Positions 55,856 through 64,000 of a DNA stretch of 64,000 nucleotides are shown piece after piece; the stretch's first letter is position 1, and every line of letters begins with the position of its first letter. The DNA is from Massilia violaceinigra (lineage in GTDB: Bacteria; Pseudomonadota; Gammaproteobacteria; Burkholderiales; Burkholderiaceae_D), in contig NZ_CP024608.1 of assembly GCF_002752675.1 (NCBI RefSeq), positions 1,922,001-1,986,000 of the forward strand, in the 5' to 3' direction. Position numbers and translations under genes: made by a program. A model generated the notes under the pieces. That model made no database searches. It was given only the letters and a program-made list of their open reading frames with translations, and was not told the DNA's origin.

Positions 55856-58705
55856 CTAAAAGGTGTAACGCACGCCTGCCGTGAAAAAACGTCCCACGGC
55901 GCCGGCATAGTCGAGCGGGTTATAGGCAGTGGCGCCGTAGGTCAGCGGGTCGAGCGGGGCGGTCTGGTCGAAGATGTTTTGCGCCGTTCCGAACACGTCG
56001 ATGCGCGGCGTCGGCTTCCAGCGCACGGTCAGATCGACCGTGGTGAAGGATGGCAGTTCGCAGTTGGCCGGGGCCGGGTCGCCGTTGGCGAAGTGGCTGG
56101 CGCAACCAGCGGGGTCGTTCTTGAACAGGGTGTTCTTGAGGTCGCCGCGGTAGTTCACGTTGGCCGACACGCGCCAGGCCGCGCGCTCCCATGACAGCCT
56201 GAAATTGACCCGGTCGTCGGGCGTGCCGATGCAGTTGGTGACGTCGCAGTTGCCGTGCGTGCCGGCGTAGTCGCGCGTGCTGCCGTCCTGCTCGGTACGC
56301 TGCCACTTGAACAGGTGAGTCCACTTGACATCCATGCTCGCTTCGCCGGTGCCCGGCCCGAAGTCGAAGCGCTGGCGCAGGTCGAGGTCGGCGCCACGCA
56401 CCTGGGTCCGCGCCGAATTGACGTAGCTGGCCAGCACCGCCGTGATCGGGCCGGGGTCGCCCGGAAGGGCGGCGCTGCTCGGATCGCGCGCGATGCGGCC
56501 CGCCGCGATGGCGGCATCGCTCTGCTCCTGGTTGATGTCGTTCTTGCGCTTGATTTCCCACAGGTCGAGCGCGATATTGGTGCGCCGGTAAGGGTCCCAC
56601 ACCATGCCGACATTGATGCTGCGCGATCTTTCGGGCGACAGCGCCGGGTTGGGCGAGGTGATGATCGCCACCGACGCCGGGCTGCAGGCGGTCTCGATGC
56701 CCAGGGCGCAGCGCAGCGGGTCGGCCGCGGTGGAGTAGGCGGCCAGGCCGCCGACCCCGTTTTCGGCCGTGCTCGGTGCGCGAAAGCCGCGCGCATACGT
56801 GCCGCGCAAGGCAAACTGGCGCAGCGGCGTCCATTTGACGCCGAACTTCGGTGTGTAGGAGTCGCCGGCGTCGGTGTAGTGGTCGGCCCTCAGCGCACCG
56901 GACAGTTCCAGGGTGCGGTGCACCGGCGCGAGCACCTCGCCGTACAGCGCTGCCACGTTGCGCCCGCCCTTGTGGGCCGAATAGCCCTGGCCAATGATAT
57001 TGCCGCGCCCGGTGCCGGGGACGGCTTCCAGATCGGCCGTTTCGCGCCGGAATTCACCGCCGAACGCGATGCCGAGATTCCCGCCGGGGAGCCCGGTCAG
57101 CTGGCGCGACGCGCGCAGGTCGATCTGGGCGATGCGGCTCTTGGCATCGTTGTTAAGCGTCGGCGCCAGCGCCGCGTACAGGGCCGGCGCATTGAGCCCG
57201 GCGTTTTCAGCGATGCGCCAGACGGTACCGGGGGGCAGCGCGGCATAGGCCGGATTGGCGCGGGCCGCCGCCACATTCTCCGGGCTCGGATTGAGCAGCG
57301 CGAACAGGACGTCGCGCTGCGGATAACGGCTGCGTTCGCTACTGACCTGGTTTTGCGAGAACAGCAGGGCGGTGTCCAGCTCCCACGGGCCCATGCTGCC
57401 CTTGGCGCCGAGCAGGAAGCGCACGAAGTCCGAGTCGATCGCGCTCGTGCGTGGGCCGAGGTCGGCCGCCATGTAGCGCAGCCGCGCCGGCCTGCCGAAA
57501 TACGGATTGTCGGGATGGGCCGCGCCCAGCGCCACGGCGGCGCTGTTGACCGGCCCGGCGGGCGAGCCGACCGCGCCGCTGACCGCCGACGGCGTGGAAG
57601 ACGATGCCGATTCGCTGCGGTACAGGTTCAGTTCGGCGTAGGTCTGCAGCGCCGGCGTGGCCTGGAACGTGGCGCGGCCGAAAAAGTTGATCCGTTCCTG
57701 GCGGGGCTGGATCTGGCCGTACAGTTGCGCCGCGTCGACCAGGCAGCCGCCGCCCGGATCGCCCTGCGGATGGCGCGTGAAATTGGCGCAGGCCGCGCCC
57801 GGAAAGGTGCGCGTGAAGCCGGCCCCGCCCAGGTTGCCGCGGTTGACGTAGTCGAGCGTATCGGGGTTGCGTACATTGCCATTGATGGCGCTGCCGGCGG
57901 CATTGTTGATGGTGATGGCGCCGGTGCCGCCGAGCGACTCCTGGGCGCTGAAACCCCAGGGGCGCAGGTCGCCGCGCCCGATGTGGCCGCGCCCGGCGCG
58001 GTCGCGGTTCCAGATGGCGCCGCGCCGCCCGTACTCGAGGCTGGCCAGGACGTTGTAGCGGTCGGCGTCCAGGTCGCCGCTGCCCCAGGTCACGGCGGCG
58101 ACGCCATCGTTGCCGTCGCGTTCGCGCGACTGGCCGAAGCTGGCGCGCAGCGCCGTGCCGTGAAAGTCGCGCCGCAGGATCACGTTGACCACGCCGGCGA
58201 TCGCGTCCGAACCGTAGATGGCCGAGGCGCCATCCTTGAGCACTTCGATCCGCTCGACCGCGTCGGCCGGGATGATGTTCAGGTCGGAAAACATTTTCTG
58301 GCCATCGTCGGCCAGGCCGTAGGGCGCCACCCTGCGCCCGTTGAGCAGGACCAGGGTGGAGGCGGCGCCCAGGCCGCGCAGCGAGAGGCCGGAGGCGCCG
58401 CTGGCGAAGCCGCTGCCGAAACTGGACGGCACCGACCCTTGGTTATCGACGGCCAGGGTTTGCAGCAGTTCGGCCACCGTGGTTTTGCCGGAACGCTCGA
58501 TATCGTTGCGGTTCAGGGTGATGACGGCGGCCGCGGTCTCGGTCGTGGCGCGCGGGATGTGGGTGCCGGTGATTTCCACCCGCGGCATGGGGCCGGGCGG
58601 CGCCGGGGTTTGGGCCTGGACGGCCAGCGAGAGCAGGGCCAGGCTGGCGCCGCCGCCGCCGGCGGACAGGCGTCTTAGCGAACAGGAAATGACGGATTCT
58701 TTCAT
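55856..58705 (-). CDS. TonB-dependent outer-membrane receptor 5
   Basis: 949 residues from the ATG at 58705, with GGAG upstream. The signal peptide ends SLAVQAQ. The plug has VEITGTHIPRATTE, LLNGRRVAPYG and ERIEVLKDGASAIYGSDAIAGVVNVIL; the barrel ends TAGVRYTF. A 22-residue upstream extension is rejected. It is the first gene of the receptor 5-4 pair and has FNR-like boxes 71 and about 181 bases upstream. The ligand is unknown. Confidence 0.92.
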   Translation of the reverse strand: MKESVISCSLRRLSAGGGGASLALLSLAVQAQTPAPPGPMPRVEITGTHIPRATTETAAAVITLNRNDIERSGKTTVAELLQTLAVDNQGSVPSSFGSGFASGASGLSLRGLGAASTLVLLNGRRVAPYGLADDGQKMFSDLNIIPADAVERIEVLKDGASAIYGSDAIAGVVNVILRRDFHGTALRASFGQSRERDGNDGVAAVTWGSGDLDADRYNVLASLEYGRRGAIWNRDRAGRGHIGRGDLRPWGFSAQESLGGTGAITINNAAGSAINGNVRNPDTLDYVNRGNLGGAGFTRTFPGAACANFTRHPQGDPGGGCLVDAAQLYGQIQPRQERINFFGRATFQATPALQTYAELNLYRSESASSSTPSAVSGAVGSPAGPVNSAAVALGAAHPDNPYFGRPARLRYMAADLGPRTSAIDSDFVRFLLGAKGSMGPWELDTALLFSQNQVSSERSRYPQRDVLFALLNPSPENVAAARANPAYAALPPGTVWRIAENAGLNAPALYAALAPTLNNDAKSRIAQIDLRASRQLTGLPGGNLGIAFGGEFRRETADLEAVPGTGRGNIIGQGYSAHKGGRNVAALYGEVLAPVHRTLELSGALRADHYTDAGDSYTPKFGVKWTPLRQFALRGTYARGFRAPSTAENGVGGLAAYSTAADPLRCALGIETACSPASVAIITSPNPALSPERSRSINVGMVWDPYRRTNIALDLWEIKRKNDINQEQSDAAIAAGRIARDPSSAALPGDPGPITAVLASYVNSARTQVRGADLDLRQRFDFGPGTGEASMDVKWTHLFKWQRTEQDGSTRDYAGTHGNCDVTNCIGTPDDRVNFRLSWERAAWRVSANVNYRGDLKNTLFKNDPAGCASHFANGDPAPANCELPSFTTVDLTVRWKPTPRIDVFGTAQNIFDQTAPLDPLTYGATAYNPLDYAGAVGRFFTAGVRYTF

Positions 58706-58769
58706 TGCGGACTCCGGAAAACGATTGTCTGCCGATTGACTGCCCCGCCCGCTTCGCCCGGGGATGACC

Positions 58770-58783
58770 ATGATTTAGGTCAA
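58770..58783 (-). promoter_or_regulatory. FNR/Anr-like box upstream of TonB receptor 5
   Basis: On the minus strand TTGAC-CTAA-ATCAT matches the FNR consensus TTGAT-N4-ATCAA in 8 of 10 positions, centred about 71 bases before the start codon of receptor 5. This suggests control by oxygen. Confidence 0.45.
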
Positions 58784-58879
58784 TCTATCTATTTGGAAAA
58801 GTTGATCGGGGTTTGATCTGGCGCAAGGTTCGGCTGGGGACTGGATGGACCGAGTTTTGCACCGGGCGCGCCGGCACAA

Positions 58880-58893
58880 CTGATCTGGATCAA
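58880..58893. promoter_or_regulatory. Second FNR/Anr-like box
   Basis: CTGAT-CTGG-ATCAA matches TTGAT-N4-ATCAA in 9 of 10 positions. It lies about 181 bases before receptor 5 and about 127 bases before the predicted DAHP synthase transcription start, so either could be the target; the spacing suits neither well. Confidence 0.5.
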
Positions 58894-58976
58894 ACGTGAC
58901 AGGCATCGGCGCCCCCGTTGTGGGGAAGGCGCAACCGCTTGTGGCGTATCGCCTTGACGGAAGCCGATAAAACAGC

Positions 58977-59006
58977 TTGCCAAATTGCAGGAATCGTTGT
59001 TATAGT
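58977..59006 (+). promoter_or_regulatory. Promoter of the DAHP synthase leader
   Basis: TTGCCA, an 18-base spacer, then TATAGT preceded by an extended-minus-10 TG. Transcription would start near 59013, about 20 bases before the leader peptide ATG. Confidence 0.6.
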
Positions 59007-59032
59007 CGTTGCACCACTTTTGGATTCTTGCC

Positions 59033-59101
59033 ATGCACAACGTCTTTTTCTTTACCTGCTACTTTTACTTTAGCAATTCCAACCCTAAGGCGGTGGAGTA
59101 G
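59033..59101 (+). CDS. Phe/Tyr-rich leader peptide of the DAHP synthase attenuator
   Basis: A 22-residue frame from ATG to TAG. It begins M-H-N and contains VFFFTCYFYF, i.e. five Phe and two Tyr codons within nine residues (5-13), then a polar tail. This is the hallmark of a ribosome-mediated attenuator that senses charged tRNA-Phe and tRNA-Tyr, like PheL before E. coli pheA. It lies between a promoter and a rho-independent terminator that precede the DAHP synthase gene, so shortage of Phe/Tyr would stall the ribosome and allow read-through. The Shine-Dalgarno is weak (TTGGAT). It is too short for standard gene calling. Confidence 0.82.
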   Translation: MHNVFFFTCYFYFSNSNPKAVE

Positions 59102-59143
59102 CGGCAGGTTCACGTAGCAACAACGAGATCTTGCAATATCCAG

Positions 59144-59173
59144 AAAAACCGCCAGCCATGGCGGTTTTTTTTT
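59144..59173 (+). terminator. Attenuator terminator before the DAHP synthase gene
   Basis: AAAACCGCC and GGCGGTTTT stem with a 6-base loop, followed by a T-run, 42 bases after the leader stop and 40 before the synthase ATG. GGCGGT at 59089-59094, inside the end of the leader frame, can pair with the 5' arm (ACCGCC, 59148-59153), giving a candidate antiterminator that a stalled ribosome would leave free. Confidence 0.85.
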
Positions 59174-59212
59174 AGCCCATCCATTTTGAATGACCCAGCC
59201 ACGGAGAACAGC

Positions 59213-60274
59213 ATGCCCCGCACCGACGATCTACGCATCCGCGAAATGAAGGAATTGACGCCGCCCTCCCACCTGATCCGCGAGTTTGCCTGCGGCGAGC
59301 GGGCCGAGCAGACCACCAGCGCGTCGCGCGTGGCGCTGCACCGCATCCTGCACGGCCAGGACGACCGCCTGATGGTGGTGATCGGCCCGTGCTCGATCCA
59401 CGATACCAAGGCGGCCATGGAATATGCGCGCCGCCTGATCGGCGAACGCGACCGTTTCAAGGACGAGCTGGAAATCGTCATGCGCGTGTACTTCGAGAAG
59501 CCGCGCACCACGGTCGGCTGGAAGGGCTTGATCAACGATCCGTACATGGACAACAGCTTCCGCATCAACGACGGGCTGCGCATGGCGCGCGAGCTGCTGC
59601 GCGACATCAATGAACTGGGCTTGCCGGCCGGTACCGAGTACCTGGACGTGATCAGCCCGCAGTACATCGCCGACCTGATCAGCTGGGGCGCGATCGGCGC
59701 GCGCACCACCGAGTCGCAGGTGCACCGCGAACTGGCGTCCGGGCTGTCCTGTCCGGTGGGCTTCAAGAACGGGACCGACGGCAACATCAAGATCGCGGTC
59801 GAAGCGATCAAGGCGGCCTCGCACCCGCACCATTTCCTGTCGGTGACCAAGGGCGGGCATTCGGCGATCGTCTCGACCAACGGCAATGAGGATTGCCACG
59901 TCATCCTGCGCGGCGGCAAGACACCCAACTATGACGCGGCCAGCGTGGAACTGGCCTGCCAGCAAATCGCGGCACTCGGCCTGGCGGCGCGCCTAATGAT
60001 CGACGCCTCGCATGCCAACAGTTCCAAGAAGCCGGAAAACCAGGTGCCGGTGTGCGCCGACATCGCGGCCCAGGTGGCCGGCGGCGACGAGCGCATCGTC
60101 GGCGTGATGGTGGAGTCGCATCTGGTGGGCGGGCGCCAGGATCTGGTGCCGGGCAAGGAACTGGTCTACGGCCAGTCGATCACCGATGGCTGCATCGACT
60201 GGGACAGCAGCGTGGCCGTGCTCGAAGGCTTGGCCGCGGCCGTGCGCCAGCGCCGCTTGCGTCAGGACCTCTGA
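59213..60274 (+). CDS. 3-deoxy-7-phosphoheptulonate (DAHP) synthase, class I
   Basis: A 353-residue AroF/G/H-type enzyme that joins phosphoenolpyruvate and erythrose-4-phosphate, the first step of the shikimate pathway. Motifs: MVVIGPCSIHD near residue 55, RVYFEKPRTTVGWKG, SGLSCPVGFKNGT, and RLMIDASHANSSKKPENQ. The ATG at 59213 has GGAGAACAGC upstream and gives the normal family length; the longer frame from a TTG at 59186 has no Shine-Dalgarno. Expression is expected to be set by the upstream Phe/Tyr leader and attenuator. A terminator follows at 60305. Confidence 0.96.
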   Translation: MPRTDDLRIREMKELTPPSHLIREFACGERAEQTTSASRVALHRILHGQDDRLMVVIGPCSIHDTKAAMEYARRLIGERDRFKDELEIVMRVYFEKPRTTVGWKGLINDPYMDNSFRINDGLRMARELLRDINELGLPAGTEYLDVISPQYIADLISWGAIGARTTESQVHRELASGLSCPVGFKNGTDGNIKIAVEAIKAASHPHHFLSVTKGGHSAIVSTNGNEDCHVILRGGKTPNYDAASVELACQQIAALGLAARLMIDASHANSSKKPENQVPVCADIAAQVAGGDERIVGVMVESHLVGGRQDLVPGKELVYGQSITDGCIDWDSSVAVLEGLAAAVRQRRLRQDL

Positions 60275-60844: not shown

Positions 60845-63706
60845 ATGATGACAGAAACCGTTTTATCGCGTTCACTGCGCCTGGTTTTCTCGGGCGGTAT
60901 CGCCGTCGGCCTTGGCCTCGCAGCATTGCCTGCCGTGGCGCAGACCGCTTCCCAGGACAATTCGATGCAGCGCGTCGAGATCACCGGCTCCTCGATCAAG
61001 CGCGTCGCCGCTGAAACCGCACTGCCTGTCACCATTCTTCGCCGCGAAGACATCGAGCGCACCGGCGCCACCTCGGCCCAGGATCTGGTCAACCTGATTC
61101 CGGGTAACTTCGGTGGCAACGTGGCCTCCAACAACGTCGGCGCCTCCGGCGTGCCGTCGACCGCCAACCTGCGCGCCCTGGGCGCCCGTTACACGCTGGT
61201 GCTGCTCAACGGCCGCCGCGTGGCCAACTATGCAGTCGGCAACAACCCGGTCGACTTGAATTCGATTCCGCTGTCGGCCATCGAACGCATCGAAGTGCTG
61301 CGCGACGGCGCCTCCGCCGTGTACGGCGCCGATGCGGTGGCGGGCGTGATCAACTTCATCCTCAAAAAAGACTACAAAGGGATGGAAGTATCGGCCTACA
61401 AGACCCACGTGGATCAGGGCGGCGGCAATACCAAGAGCTTTAACCTGACCGGCGGCTTCGGCGACATCGCGACCGACCGCTTCAACGTGCTGTTCAGCGC
61501 CAATCACGAAGAGAACCAGAAACTGCTCGCTTCCGAGCGCAGCTTCTCGACCACCTCCGTGCGTCCCGATCTGGGCCTCAACAAGTCCTCGCCACGTAAC
61601 GGCGTGCCCAACCTGAACTTCACCGATTCGCTCGGCAACAAATACGTTGGCGTGAACCCTTACCGCTACAACGGTTGCAAGAACGACGAATTCAGCTTGG
61701 TGGTCAACAGCGAAAAAGGCTGCGGCACCGACTATGTGAAGTACATCGACCTGGTTCCTGAAGCCAAGCACGACAACATCGTCACGCGCGGCGTGTTCAA
61801 GGTCAACGAAGGCCTGGAACTGTTCGCCGAAGCGGCTTACACCAAGGACAAGATGATCGCGGCTGCGTCGCCAGCGCCGTACACCAAAGCCATGACCTAT
61901 CCGGCCAATGGCCGCTTCTATCCAAAAACGATCAAGCTGCCCAAGGGCCTCAAGCTGCCGGCTGGCTACAAAATGCCGAACGGCAGCGTCACGACGGCGG
62001 AAACCGTTCTCGCGGCCGATATGGATGTGACCCCGACCGGTCCGATGACAGGTACCTGGCGTACCGTCGCCGGCGGCGGCCGTAACGACCTCACCAAGAC
62101 CGAGAACACGCGGGTCGTGGTGGGGGCCAAGGGCATGCTCGCGGGCTGGGATTACGAGACTGCACTGACTTACGGCAAGAATGAAGTCGAGATCCAATTC
62201 GGTCCAGGCAAGTTCAGCTATGCAAGACTGGATCCGCTGGTCAAAAATGGTGAAATTAACGTATTCGGTACGCAAGATGCGGCCAGCCTGGCGGCTTTGC
62301 TGGGTTCGCAACTGAGCGGCTTTGAAAACGGCGGGACCTCGATCTCGAAAGAGTTCGACTTCAAAATGTCCAAAGAACTTTTCAACATGCCTGCTGGCGC
62401 GGTTGGCTTCTCGGTTGGCACCTCGTTCCGCAAGGAAAAGCTGACCCAAGAGTCGTCTGAGGTGCTTAAGAAAGGTGACGAAGTCGGCGGCGCCGGTGAA
62501 ATTCTTGGCGTGACGGGCGACCGCAAGGTCTTCGGCCTGTTCTCGGAAGTGGTTGTGCCGGTCATCAAGAGCCTGGAACTGACCGCTGCCGCGCGCTACG
62601 ACAAGTACAAGAACGGTTTCGGCACCGAATTCGATAACCTGAGCCCGAAACTGGGCTTCACCTTCCGTCCGAGCACGGTAATCATGGCGCGCGGTTCGGT
62701 GGCGCGCGGCTTCCGCGCACCGACCCTGGTCGACAACCTCAGACCGAAGGAACTGAACAACACCTCGTCGAACTTCAGTGATCCGATTCGCTGCCCGAAC
62801 GGCACGCCGATCAACGATTCCGTTGGCGAACTGCAGGATGAGTGCAATGTTCAGTTGGACACGCAAAACAGCGGCAATCCCGACCTCAAACCTGAGAAGT
62901 CGAAGCAGTACACTCTTGGTCTGGTATTCCAGCCGACGTCGACCGTCAGCGGCTCGATCGATTACTGGAACGTGAAAATCGACAAGTCGATTAACGCGAT
63001 GTCGGAAAACACCGTGTTCGGCGACCCGGTTGCCAACATTAACCAGTTCTATCGCTACGATCCTGCCGTTGAAGCAGCTGAGGAAGTGAAGGGTTTCCCG
63101 AAACTGCCAGGGTCGAAGGCCAATCCTTACCGCGCCAGCACTAACAAGGACTTCCCGCTCGCGTACGTCGCCCTGCCACGCGTGAACACCGGCAAGTTCT
63201 ACGCCGCCGGTATCGATTTGAACCTGAACTATCGCCAGAAGATGGGCGATATGGGCACGGTTGGCGCGAACTTCGATTCGACCTACTACAGCAAGCACGG
63301 CTATCAGTACCAAGGTGAGAAGGAAGTCAGCGACCTGGGCAACTTCAAGGATTTCGGCCCAACCCCGCGTTTCCGTCATACCCTGGGCCTGACCTACGGC
63401 ATCGGCCAGTGGAATACCTCGCTGACGCACAACTACACCAAGGGCTATTGGGACTACACCGATCCAGCGTCGATCGGTCCTAACTACCCTGAGCTGCGTA
63501 AAGTTGGCGATTACTCGACCTTCGACGCCACTTTGGGGTGGAAACCGATGAAAAACGTCAGCATGACGTTTGGCGTGAAAAACATTGCGGACGAGGATCC
63601 ACCATCGTCGCGTAACGGACAGAACTTCCAGGTCGGTTACGATCCGACCTTCACCAACCCGCTGGGTCGCACGTTCTACGCACGTCTGAACTACAAGTTC
63701 CTGTAA
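60845..63706 (+). CDS. TonB-dependent outer-membrane receptor 6
   Basis: 953 residues with a signal peptide ending PAVAQT. The plug has VEITGSSIKRVAAE, LLNGRRVANYAVG and ERIEVLRDGASAVYGADAVAGVINFIL. The barrel ends RLNYKFL, so the last residue is Leu instead of the usual aromatic residue. Its plug is close to that of receptor 1. AAGGGATTTCACAC precedes the ATG. The ligand is unknown and no partner genes are adjacent. A long terminator and a group II intron follow directly. Confidence 0.92.
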   Translation: MMTETVLSRSLRLVFSGGIAVGLGLAALPAVAQTASQDNSMQRVEITGSSIKRVAAETALPVTILRREDIERTGATSAQDLVNLIPGNFGGNVASNNVGASGVPSTANLRALGARYTLVLLNGRRVANYAVGNNPVDLNSIPLSAIERIEVLRDGASAVYGADAVAGVINFILKKDYKGMEVSAYKTHVDQGGGNTKSFNLTGGFGDIATDRFNVLFSANHEENQKLLASERSFSTTSVRPDLGLNKSSPRNGVPNLNFTDSLGNKYVGVNPYRYNGCKNDEFSLVVNSEKGCGTDYVKYIDLVPEAKHDNIVTRGVFKVNEGLELFAEAAYTKDKMIAAASPAPYTKAMTYPANGRFYPKTIKLPKGLKLPAGYKMPNGSVTTAETVLAADMDVTPTGPMTGTWRTVAGGGRNDLTKTENTRVVVGAKGMLAGWDYETALTYGKNEVEIQFGPGKFSYARLDPLVKNGEINVFGTQDAASLAALLGSQLSGFENGGTSISKEFDFKMSKELFNMPAGAVGFSVGTSFRKEKLTQESSEVLKKGDEVGGAGEILGVTGDRKVFGLFSEVVVPVIKSLELTAAARYDKYKNGFGTEFDNLSPKLGFTFRPSTVIMARGSVARGFRAPTLVDNLRPKELNNTSSNFSDPIRCPNGTPINDSVGELQDECNVQLDTQNSGNPDLKPEKSKQYTLGLVFQPTSTVSGSIDYWNVKIDKSINAMSENTVFGDPVANINQFYRYDPAVEAAEEVKGFPKLPGSKANPYRASTNKDFPLAYVALPRVNTGKFYAAGIDLNLNYRQKMGDMGTVGANFDSTYYSKHGYQYQGEKEVSDLGNFKDFGPTPRFRHTLGLTYGIGQWNTSLTHNYTKGYWDYTDPASIGPNYPELRKVGDYSTFDATLGWKPMKNVSMTFGVKNIADEDPPSSRNGQNFQVGYDPTFTNPLGRTFYARLNYKFL

Positions 63707-63813: not shown

Positions 63814-64000
63814 GTGCGCCCAGCATGGGCGCACTCCTGCGGGTGCAAGTCCCGCCGCGAGCTGACCACAGCGAGCGAAGTGAAGCGCAACTGCGGAAGA
63901 GTAATCGACCGTGGGAAGGAAGCGCGAATCGTAAATCATGAGCCGAGGTACACGAACTGCATAGAAGGCGCTGCCGAGCAGGGCGAGCGGGCGAGAAACC
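63814..64000 (+). mobile_element. Group II intron, 5' part, class C-like
   Basis: The sequence starts GTGCGCCCAGCATGGGCGCA, the conserved 5' end of bacterial group II introns. It continues with the domain I motif GGGTGCAAGTCCCG, then GAAGGAAGC and ACACGAACTGCATAGAAGGC, all of which match the domain I layout of class C introns such as that of Oceanobacillus. The intron runs off the right edge, so the reverse transcriptase gene is not visible. The four-base gap to the terminator T-run fits class C insertion. Confidence 0.88.

Follow-up and report, generated by a model that had tools for sequence, protein, structure and literature searches.

In Escherichia coli, pheL is a Phe-rich leader with alternative hairpins and a terminator in the aromatic pathway, and the enterobacterial thr and ilv leaders combine codons of more than one amino acid in one leader. 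The leader that we describe here, upstream of the DAHP synthase gene aroG of Massilia violaceinigra, shares each of these elements with pheL, which however controls chorismate mutase/prephenate dehydratase (pheA) and not DAHP synthase; it is like the thr and ilv leaders in its mixed codons and unlike them in pathway. For DAHP synthase itself, passages of a review (PMC11802643, which also names pheL) describe the aroR-aroF attenuator of Corynebacterium glutamicum (Neshat et al. 2014), in which a Phe-Tyr-Phe leader precedes the DAHP synthase operon and Phe limitation raises transcription, with Tyr reported to have no effect. That system belongs to another phylum and, as far as the description in those passages sets it apart, the aromatic runs of the present leaders are longer and, in Burkholderiaceae, include Trp as well. 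In Acholeplasma, the uORFC-13-1 motif upstream of aroF, a prediction from 24 unique sequences of one genus and environmental DNA (passages of PMC8632094), likewise places a predicted upstream frame containing Phe codon(s), and a terminator, ahead of a gene for DAHP synthase; the genus is distant. An attenuator with Tyr-tRNA as signal has also been predicted for Shewanella aroF, after a hypothesis for E. coli aroF-tyrA; this is a gammaproteobacterial gene of the aroF type, and the passages of that paper show no leader peptide (PMC2659441). Among the open-licence matches listed, we found no report of an aroG leader in Betaproteobacteria; most subscription papers lie outside that set, and an earlier report is possible. 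Given the precedents of Corynebacterium aroR and the Acholeplasma motif, the mechanism is classical, and what we report is a new, widespread case.

We analysed a 64,000-nt stretch of M. violaceinigra DNA (the window), in which a first-pass annotation had proposed that a Phe/Tyr leader peptide attenuates transcription of a DAHP synthase gene. The features of the locus are as follows.

55856-58771, minus strand: TonB-dependent receptor gene, divergent from aroG (annotation of the window).
58977-59006, plus strand: sigma-70-like promoter, TTGCCA, 18-nt spacer, TATAGT (promoter scan).
59033-59101, plus strand: leader ORF of 22 codons, MHNVFFFTCYFYFSNSNPKAVE, stop TAG (read in the sequence).
59045-59071, plus strand: regulatory codons Phe-Phe-Phe-Thr-Cys-Tyr-Phe-Tyr-Phe (read in the sequence; folding of stalled states).
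59054-59109, plus strand: tentative outer helix, 59054-59060 with 59103-59109 (partner-shuffle test on 44 of 71 sequences).
59073-59102, plus strand: sequestering hairpin, 59076-59085 with 59090-59099, extended by 59073-59074 with 59101-59102 (folding, alignment).
59089-59094, plus strand: strand 2, GGCGGU, 5' strand of the antiterminator, pairing with 59148-59153.
59142-59172, plus strand: intrinsic terminator, stem 59142-59154 with 59159-59171 and a U run (folding).
59148-59153, plus strand: strand 3, ACCGCC, antiterminator partner and part of the terminator 5' arm (alignment, folding).
59213-60274, plus strand: aroG, AroG-type DAHP synthase of 353 aa (profile and structure matches).
60845-63706, plus strand: second TonB-dependent receptor gene (annotation of the window).

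The gene had been named correctly: its product clears the NCBIfam AroG equivalog cut-off (582.8 versus 568 bits) and is a type I DAHP synthase, with the Phe-regulated enzyme (1gg1, 5cks) among its best known-structure matches. The genome encodes two other DAHP synthases, 51% identical (L002, G000:C1:2861178-2862203, and L003, 6755790-6756785); both are nearest to Tyr-sensitive AroF (6agm, 6agl), and neither shows such a leader within 450 nt upstream. The two TonB-dependent receptor genes that flank aroG are both directed away from it. Since the upstream one is divergent, the plus-strand terminator within the aroG leader ends no other recognised gene, and its being the end of the upstream gene is ruled out. 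At 63895-64000 (plus strand) lies the start of a group II intron, cut by the window end (Rfam group-II-D1D4-3, 51 bits, E 2.5e-07).

Both the proposed promoter and the 22-residue frame with VFFFTCYFYF were recovered, the latter running from the ATG at 59033 to the TAG ending at 59101. A scan of 58800-59300 returned the promoter as its single match, with 10 of 12 consensus positions and a TG ahead of the second hexamer, where shuffled sequences are expected to give 0.2 ± 0.5 matches. Among 122 scored leaders (a set that excludes L104, L047, L181, L184, L110 and any locus whose hairpin was not scored), an ATG was found for 120. A TATA[AGT]T box lay at most 75 nt upstream of it in 51 of these 120 loci versus 1 of 129 control windows, and in 43 of the 51 the distance was 22-27 nt; where the box is found it mostly ends this close to the ATG, so the 5' end of the leader is probably short. 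Shine-Dalgarno-like motifs preceded just 9 of the 120 leader ATGs, and initiation may be independent of Shine-Dalgarno pairing. In a chance test on 80 genome_contigs loci (the best 80 of 590; 1.08 Mb, both strands), 103 windows held at least six aromatic residues in ten codons. The leader pattern accounted for 71 of these, and of the 32 others only three had a terminator behind them, which proved to be the variant leaders L031, L040 and L055.

We folded the leader in successive states of transcription and translation. In the transcript to 59146, the pairs of the sequestering hairpin have probabilities of 0.52-0.99. Stalled states were computed with the terminator 3' arm absent and the ribosome's leading edge assumed 12 nt past the first A-site base (10 and 14 gave similar results). 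For a ribosome stalled at each of the seven Phe/Tyr codons in turn, the lowest probability among the five antiterminator pairs 59089-59093:59149-59153 was 0.92-1.0; the innermost pair, 59094:59148, was weaker (0.54 in the stalled state, versus 1.0 for the other five pairs). Antiterminator probability drops to 0 once the ribosome edge covers 59089. With the edge at +12, the first codon to give 0 is Ser at 59078; with the edge at +10, it is Asn at 59081. In ribosome-free RNA it was 0.36 before the terminator 3' arm was made. At equilibrium the completed terminator prevails although a stalled ribosome masks the 5' part, so the switch must be kinetic. As a whole, the 143-nt leader has a folding energy 3.4 sd lower than that of shuffles; the z score without the terminator is -0.68, and in most of the rows listed single hairpins are no more stable than composition-matched shuffles (z -2.3 to +1.4). 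Although a simple terminator scan did not list 59142-59172, giving instead a 5-bp one at 58976, the predicted rho-independent terminator is borne out by folding and comparison, on which it therefore rests.

An alignment of 71 sequences, made from 78 own-family loci after dropping three off-pattern loci (L047, L104, L106) and four identical duplicates, gave further support. The antiterminator that the first-pass annotation had considered possible, 59089-59094 with 59148-59153, is paired in all 425 scored cells, with one cell gapped, and the seven core pairs of the sequestering hairpin are formed in 97.1% of cells. Because the antiterminator pairs hardly vary, covariation cannot test them. For the outer helix (ACCUGC:GCAGGU), 238 of 264 cells were paired in 44 of the 71 sequences, against a shuffled mean of 218 (0 of 5000 shuffles as good); over all 71 sequences it holds in 68-78% of cells. 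Taken together, outer helix and hairpin beat shuffles on cells paired, doubly changed cells and covariation score (0 of 500 each) but not in the counts of doubly changed pairs (135 of 500) and of pair types (186 of 500); sliding them by one column gave more doubly changed cells (31 versus 27). A tree test of one outer pair yielded just two independent contrasts, of which one was concordant and neither was discordant, and so had no power. The outer helix is missing from the minimum-energy fold, which takes other outer pairs, and its support from own-partner pairing is suggestive at most.

Hairpin halves fit their own partners better than halves exchanged among loci. In 26 of 27 hand-picked loci (L131, lacking the core, was left out), 3 of 20000 permutations were as good as the own halves; for nine group representatives, of which two are Burkholderiaceae-type, the figure was 183 of 20000. 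The open-duplex version of the test showed no such preference: 9362 of 20000 permutations for the 26 loci and 4405 of 20000 for the nine representatives were as good. Across the 71 family loci, the energy of the leader duplex averaged -19.7 kcal/mol with own and -17.0 kcal/mol with permuted partners (0 of 5000), a comparison from which relatedness was not removed.

Far from being absent in relatives, the Phe/Tyr frame is conserved: an aromatic-rich leader precedes aroG in 94 of 95 near loci (own, same-genus and genome_contigs; L001 and L004-L097), which are nearest relatives by choice and include some genome_contigs loci that repeat same-genus genomes. An automatic rule (at least five aromatics in ten codons) identified 92 of these leaders, and two (L011, L017) were recognised by eye; L047 has none, the rule's match there falling in another gene's sequence. 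The terminator is conserved too: of 132 rule-positive loci, 122 have a terminator-like hairpin with a U run. In 124 of 125 loci the distance from the end of the aromatic run to strand 2 is 3-18 nt, and the stop codon lies 7-40 nt behind the run. A covariance model (R1) built from the 71 own-family sequences matched 188 of 195 genomes of the M. violaceinigra family, in 36 of 40 genera, at E <=0.01; these genomes include training members, the E-values are rough, and the position before aroG was checked in the fetched loci. Among the seven family genomes missed by R1, G116 has an aroG (L104) that shows no leader. The M. violaceinigra genome has one match (E 1e-25; next best about 2), which rules out second copies of the element there. 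Four genomes (G350, G391, G411, G424) have two matches each; in G424 the second is a near-identical leader and aroG copy on the same contig, at its opposite end, and is therefore probably an assembly-end duplicate.

Beyond the family, the sample covered 23 Burkholderiales family groups, own family included, and aromatic leaders were seen before aroG in 8 of them (f1, f4, f8, f11, f18, f21, f28, f30), with one of five loci in f28 and three of five in f18, two of the latter by eye; no leader was seen upstream of aroG in the sampled loci of the other 15 groups. This order-wide sample drew on 300 searched genomes and included 60 stretches, spread over families, that were hand-picked among those matches listed for which there was as yet no locus; 100 genomes without a match at 1e-140 were left aside, and some matching family groups were unsampled. 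Of 80 loci outside the own family (L107-L186), 24 satisfied the automatic rule with a hairpin, and L110, L146, L147, L166 and L167 are leader-like by eye. Named leader-bearing loci include Massilia, Janthinobacterium, Duganella, Rugamonas, Collimonas, Herbaspirillum, Herminiimonas, Undibacterium, Paraburkholderia, Caballeronia and Burkholderia. By these comparisons, part of the Burkholderiales commonly carries the element, and in another part it is missing or beyond the rule. Sequences differ in other families, yet the aromatic run, the GGCGG-type strand and the terminator are all kept, and a hairpin analogous to 59073-59102 is present.

Some loci departed from this arrangement. The leaderless aroG of L047, L117, L120, L126, L152 and L182 directly follows a frame ending ...GVGQPTLRI(E/D).(L/I)TVGGT, which we take to be a TldD/PmbA-type protein; in L119 and L121 this gene and a leader occur together. 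In L096, which belongs to a Candidatus Burkholderia symbiont, the part of the frame that follows FYFYF differs from the PLADREG ending of its relatives, perhaps through decay. Copies of aroG on megaplasmids have lower identity.

The locus thus places a short frame rich in product codons before a biosynthetic gene, an intrinsic terminator between frame and gene, and, in the computed folds, a mutually exclusive antiterminator whose strand is masked with the ribosome at the stop codon. We read it as a predicted ribosome-mediated transcription attenuator that turns aroG on when Phe/Tyr run short (probability about 0.9), and the first-pass proposal of attenuation by a Phe/Tyr leader is strongly supported by the conserved frame, the terminator and the exclusive pairings. 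RNA polymerase would start about 20 nt before the leader ATG. When Phe-tRNA, and probably also Tyr-tRNA, is short, the leading ribosome would wait on 59045-59071 and mask or open the hairpin 59073-59102; the freed GGCGGU (59089-59094) would capture ACCGCC (59148-59153) as it emerges, no terminator would form, and aroG would be transcribed. With charged tRNA plentiful, the ribosome would translate the frame to its stop codon (59099-59101) and cover GGCGGU, allowing the terminator (59142-59171) to form and presumably to act efficiently. Without a ribosome, the hairpin would compete for GGCGGU and termination would again be favoured.

Which amino acid such an attenuator would answer to can be approached from its codons. 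Phe occurs in all 122 scored leaders, Tyr in 118 and Trp in 45, and Phe is most likely the main signal. A variant of the attenuator in which Phe-tRNA charging alone controls aroG and the Tyr codons are passengers would also fit the ubiquity of Phe, the Phe-sensitive type of the enzyme together with the leaderless upstream regions of its two AroF-like paralogues, and a relative (L146) whose run has Phe as its sole aromatic residue. It has the precedent of C. glutamicum aroR, reported in passages of PMC11802643 to answer Phe and not Tyr. Against it speaks the Phe-flanked codon next to the hairpin, which in the 71 own-family leaders is Tyr in 62, Trp in 8, Asp in 1 and never Phe, though UAC to UUC is a single change, and which underwent at least five changes among Tyr, Trp and other residues on the gene tree. 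A clade with another stop position has Tyr at this codon in 27 of 27 loci, and in the alignment the codon's middle base is there unpaired in the outer helix. We put control by Phe alone somewhat below even odds.

Retention of Tyr or Trp between Phe codons argues for a second aromatic amino acid. In Burkholderiaceae the leaders read FYFYFFW, with Trp in 20 of 21 distinct leaders. From these patterns we consider it slightly better than an even bet that Tyr, or Trp in Burkholderiaceae and some Massilia-like lineages, would act as a second signal of the attenuator. The combined Phe/Tyr sensor of the first-pass annotation therefore stands in part: all seven Phe/Tyr codons lie where stalling favours the antiterminator, and Tyr or Trp is retained, whereas a response to Tyr is at odds with the aroR precedent as reported in PMC11802643.

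The conserved frame could alternatively encode a trans-acting peptide, with the attenuator a by-product; such a leader peptide, peTrpL, is reported for Sinorhizobium (PMC7298713), and the peptide endings here are conserved within families (SxSxPxAVE, LRPLADREG). Conservation follows the RNA, however. The conserved residues coincide with the pairing strands, where third bases hardly change: in the 71 own-family leaders, the Ala codon GCG and the last Phe codon UUU are fixed (71/71 each), the AGC codon is kept in 70 and ends in C in all 71, and the UCC codon ends in C in 68. Codons between the strands vary, with Tyr, Asn, His, Asp and others at 59075 and Lys, Thr, Gln, Glu, Arg, Met, Leu or Gly at 59087. 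Among 21 distinct Burkholderiaceae leaders (of 34 matches), CUC is kept in 21 and CGA in 20; the CCG, CUG and GCG codons formed the search pattern and are uninformative. Other families have different peptide endings around the shared GGCGG. We reject a trans-acting peptide as the main role on this codon-level evidence and rate it very improbable. A riboswitch or protein-bound leader with an incidental aromatic frame is less probable still and is rejected: the leader can fold ribosome-free, but Rfam 15 matches no family to it in the window at the gathering threshold (Phe_leader RF01859 reaches 24.5 bits against 55 and spans 59111-59174 only, with the leader frame outside), and the placement of the aromatic run before strand 2 recurs though sequences differ between families.

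Phe codons in the leaders are mostly UUU (418 UUU versus 119 UUC in the 122 leaders). Six aroG genes (the window's and those of five loci) have 2 UUU versus 36 UUC, with 1 and 5, respectively, in the window's aroG. The preference in leaders might reflect slow decoding or a requirement for weak RNA structure.

Passages of PMC5343134 describe gammaproteobacterial regulons of TrpR in eight lineages and of TyrR in six. The TyrR (TIGR04381) and TrpR (TIGR01321) profiles each matched 0 of 20 genomes of the M. violaceinigra family, own included, with E. coli controls positive, which fits the contrast that had been drawn with TyrR/TrpR repression in E. coli. The aroG leader might then be an adjustable multi-aromatic sensor, reading Phe and Tyr, with Trp in some lineages, so that any shortage opens the entry gene, retuned by exchange of one codon and standing in for TyrR/TrpR; we offer this reading tentatively, with the odds against it. 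An interchangeable second amino acid in the leader is possibly a new twist on attenuation, and the natural Tyr-to-Trp swaps in similar leaders provide a direct test of whether a mixed leader senses each amino acid. The work also defines an RNA element unmatched by Rfam 15 at the gathering threshold, and gives a concrete answer to how a family in which neither TyrR nor TrpR was detected (20 genomes) may regulate entry into its aromatic pathway.
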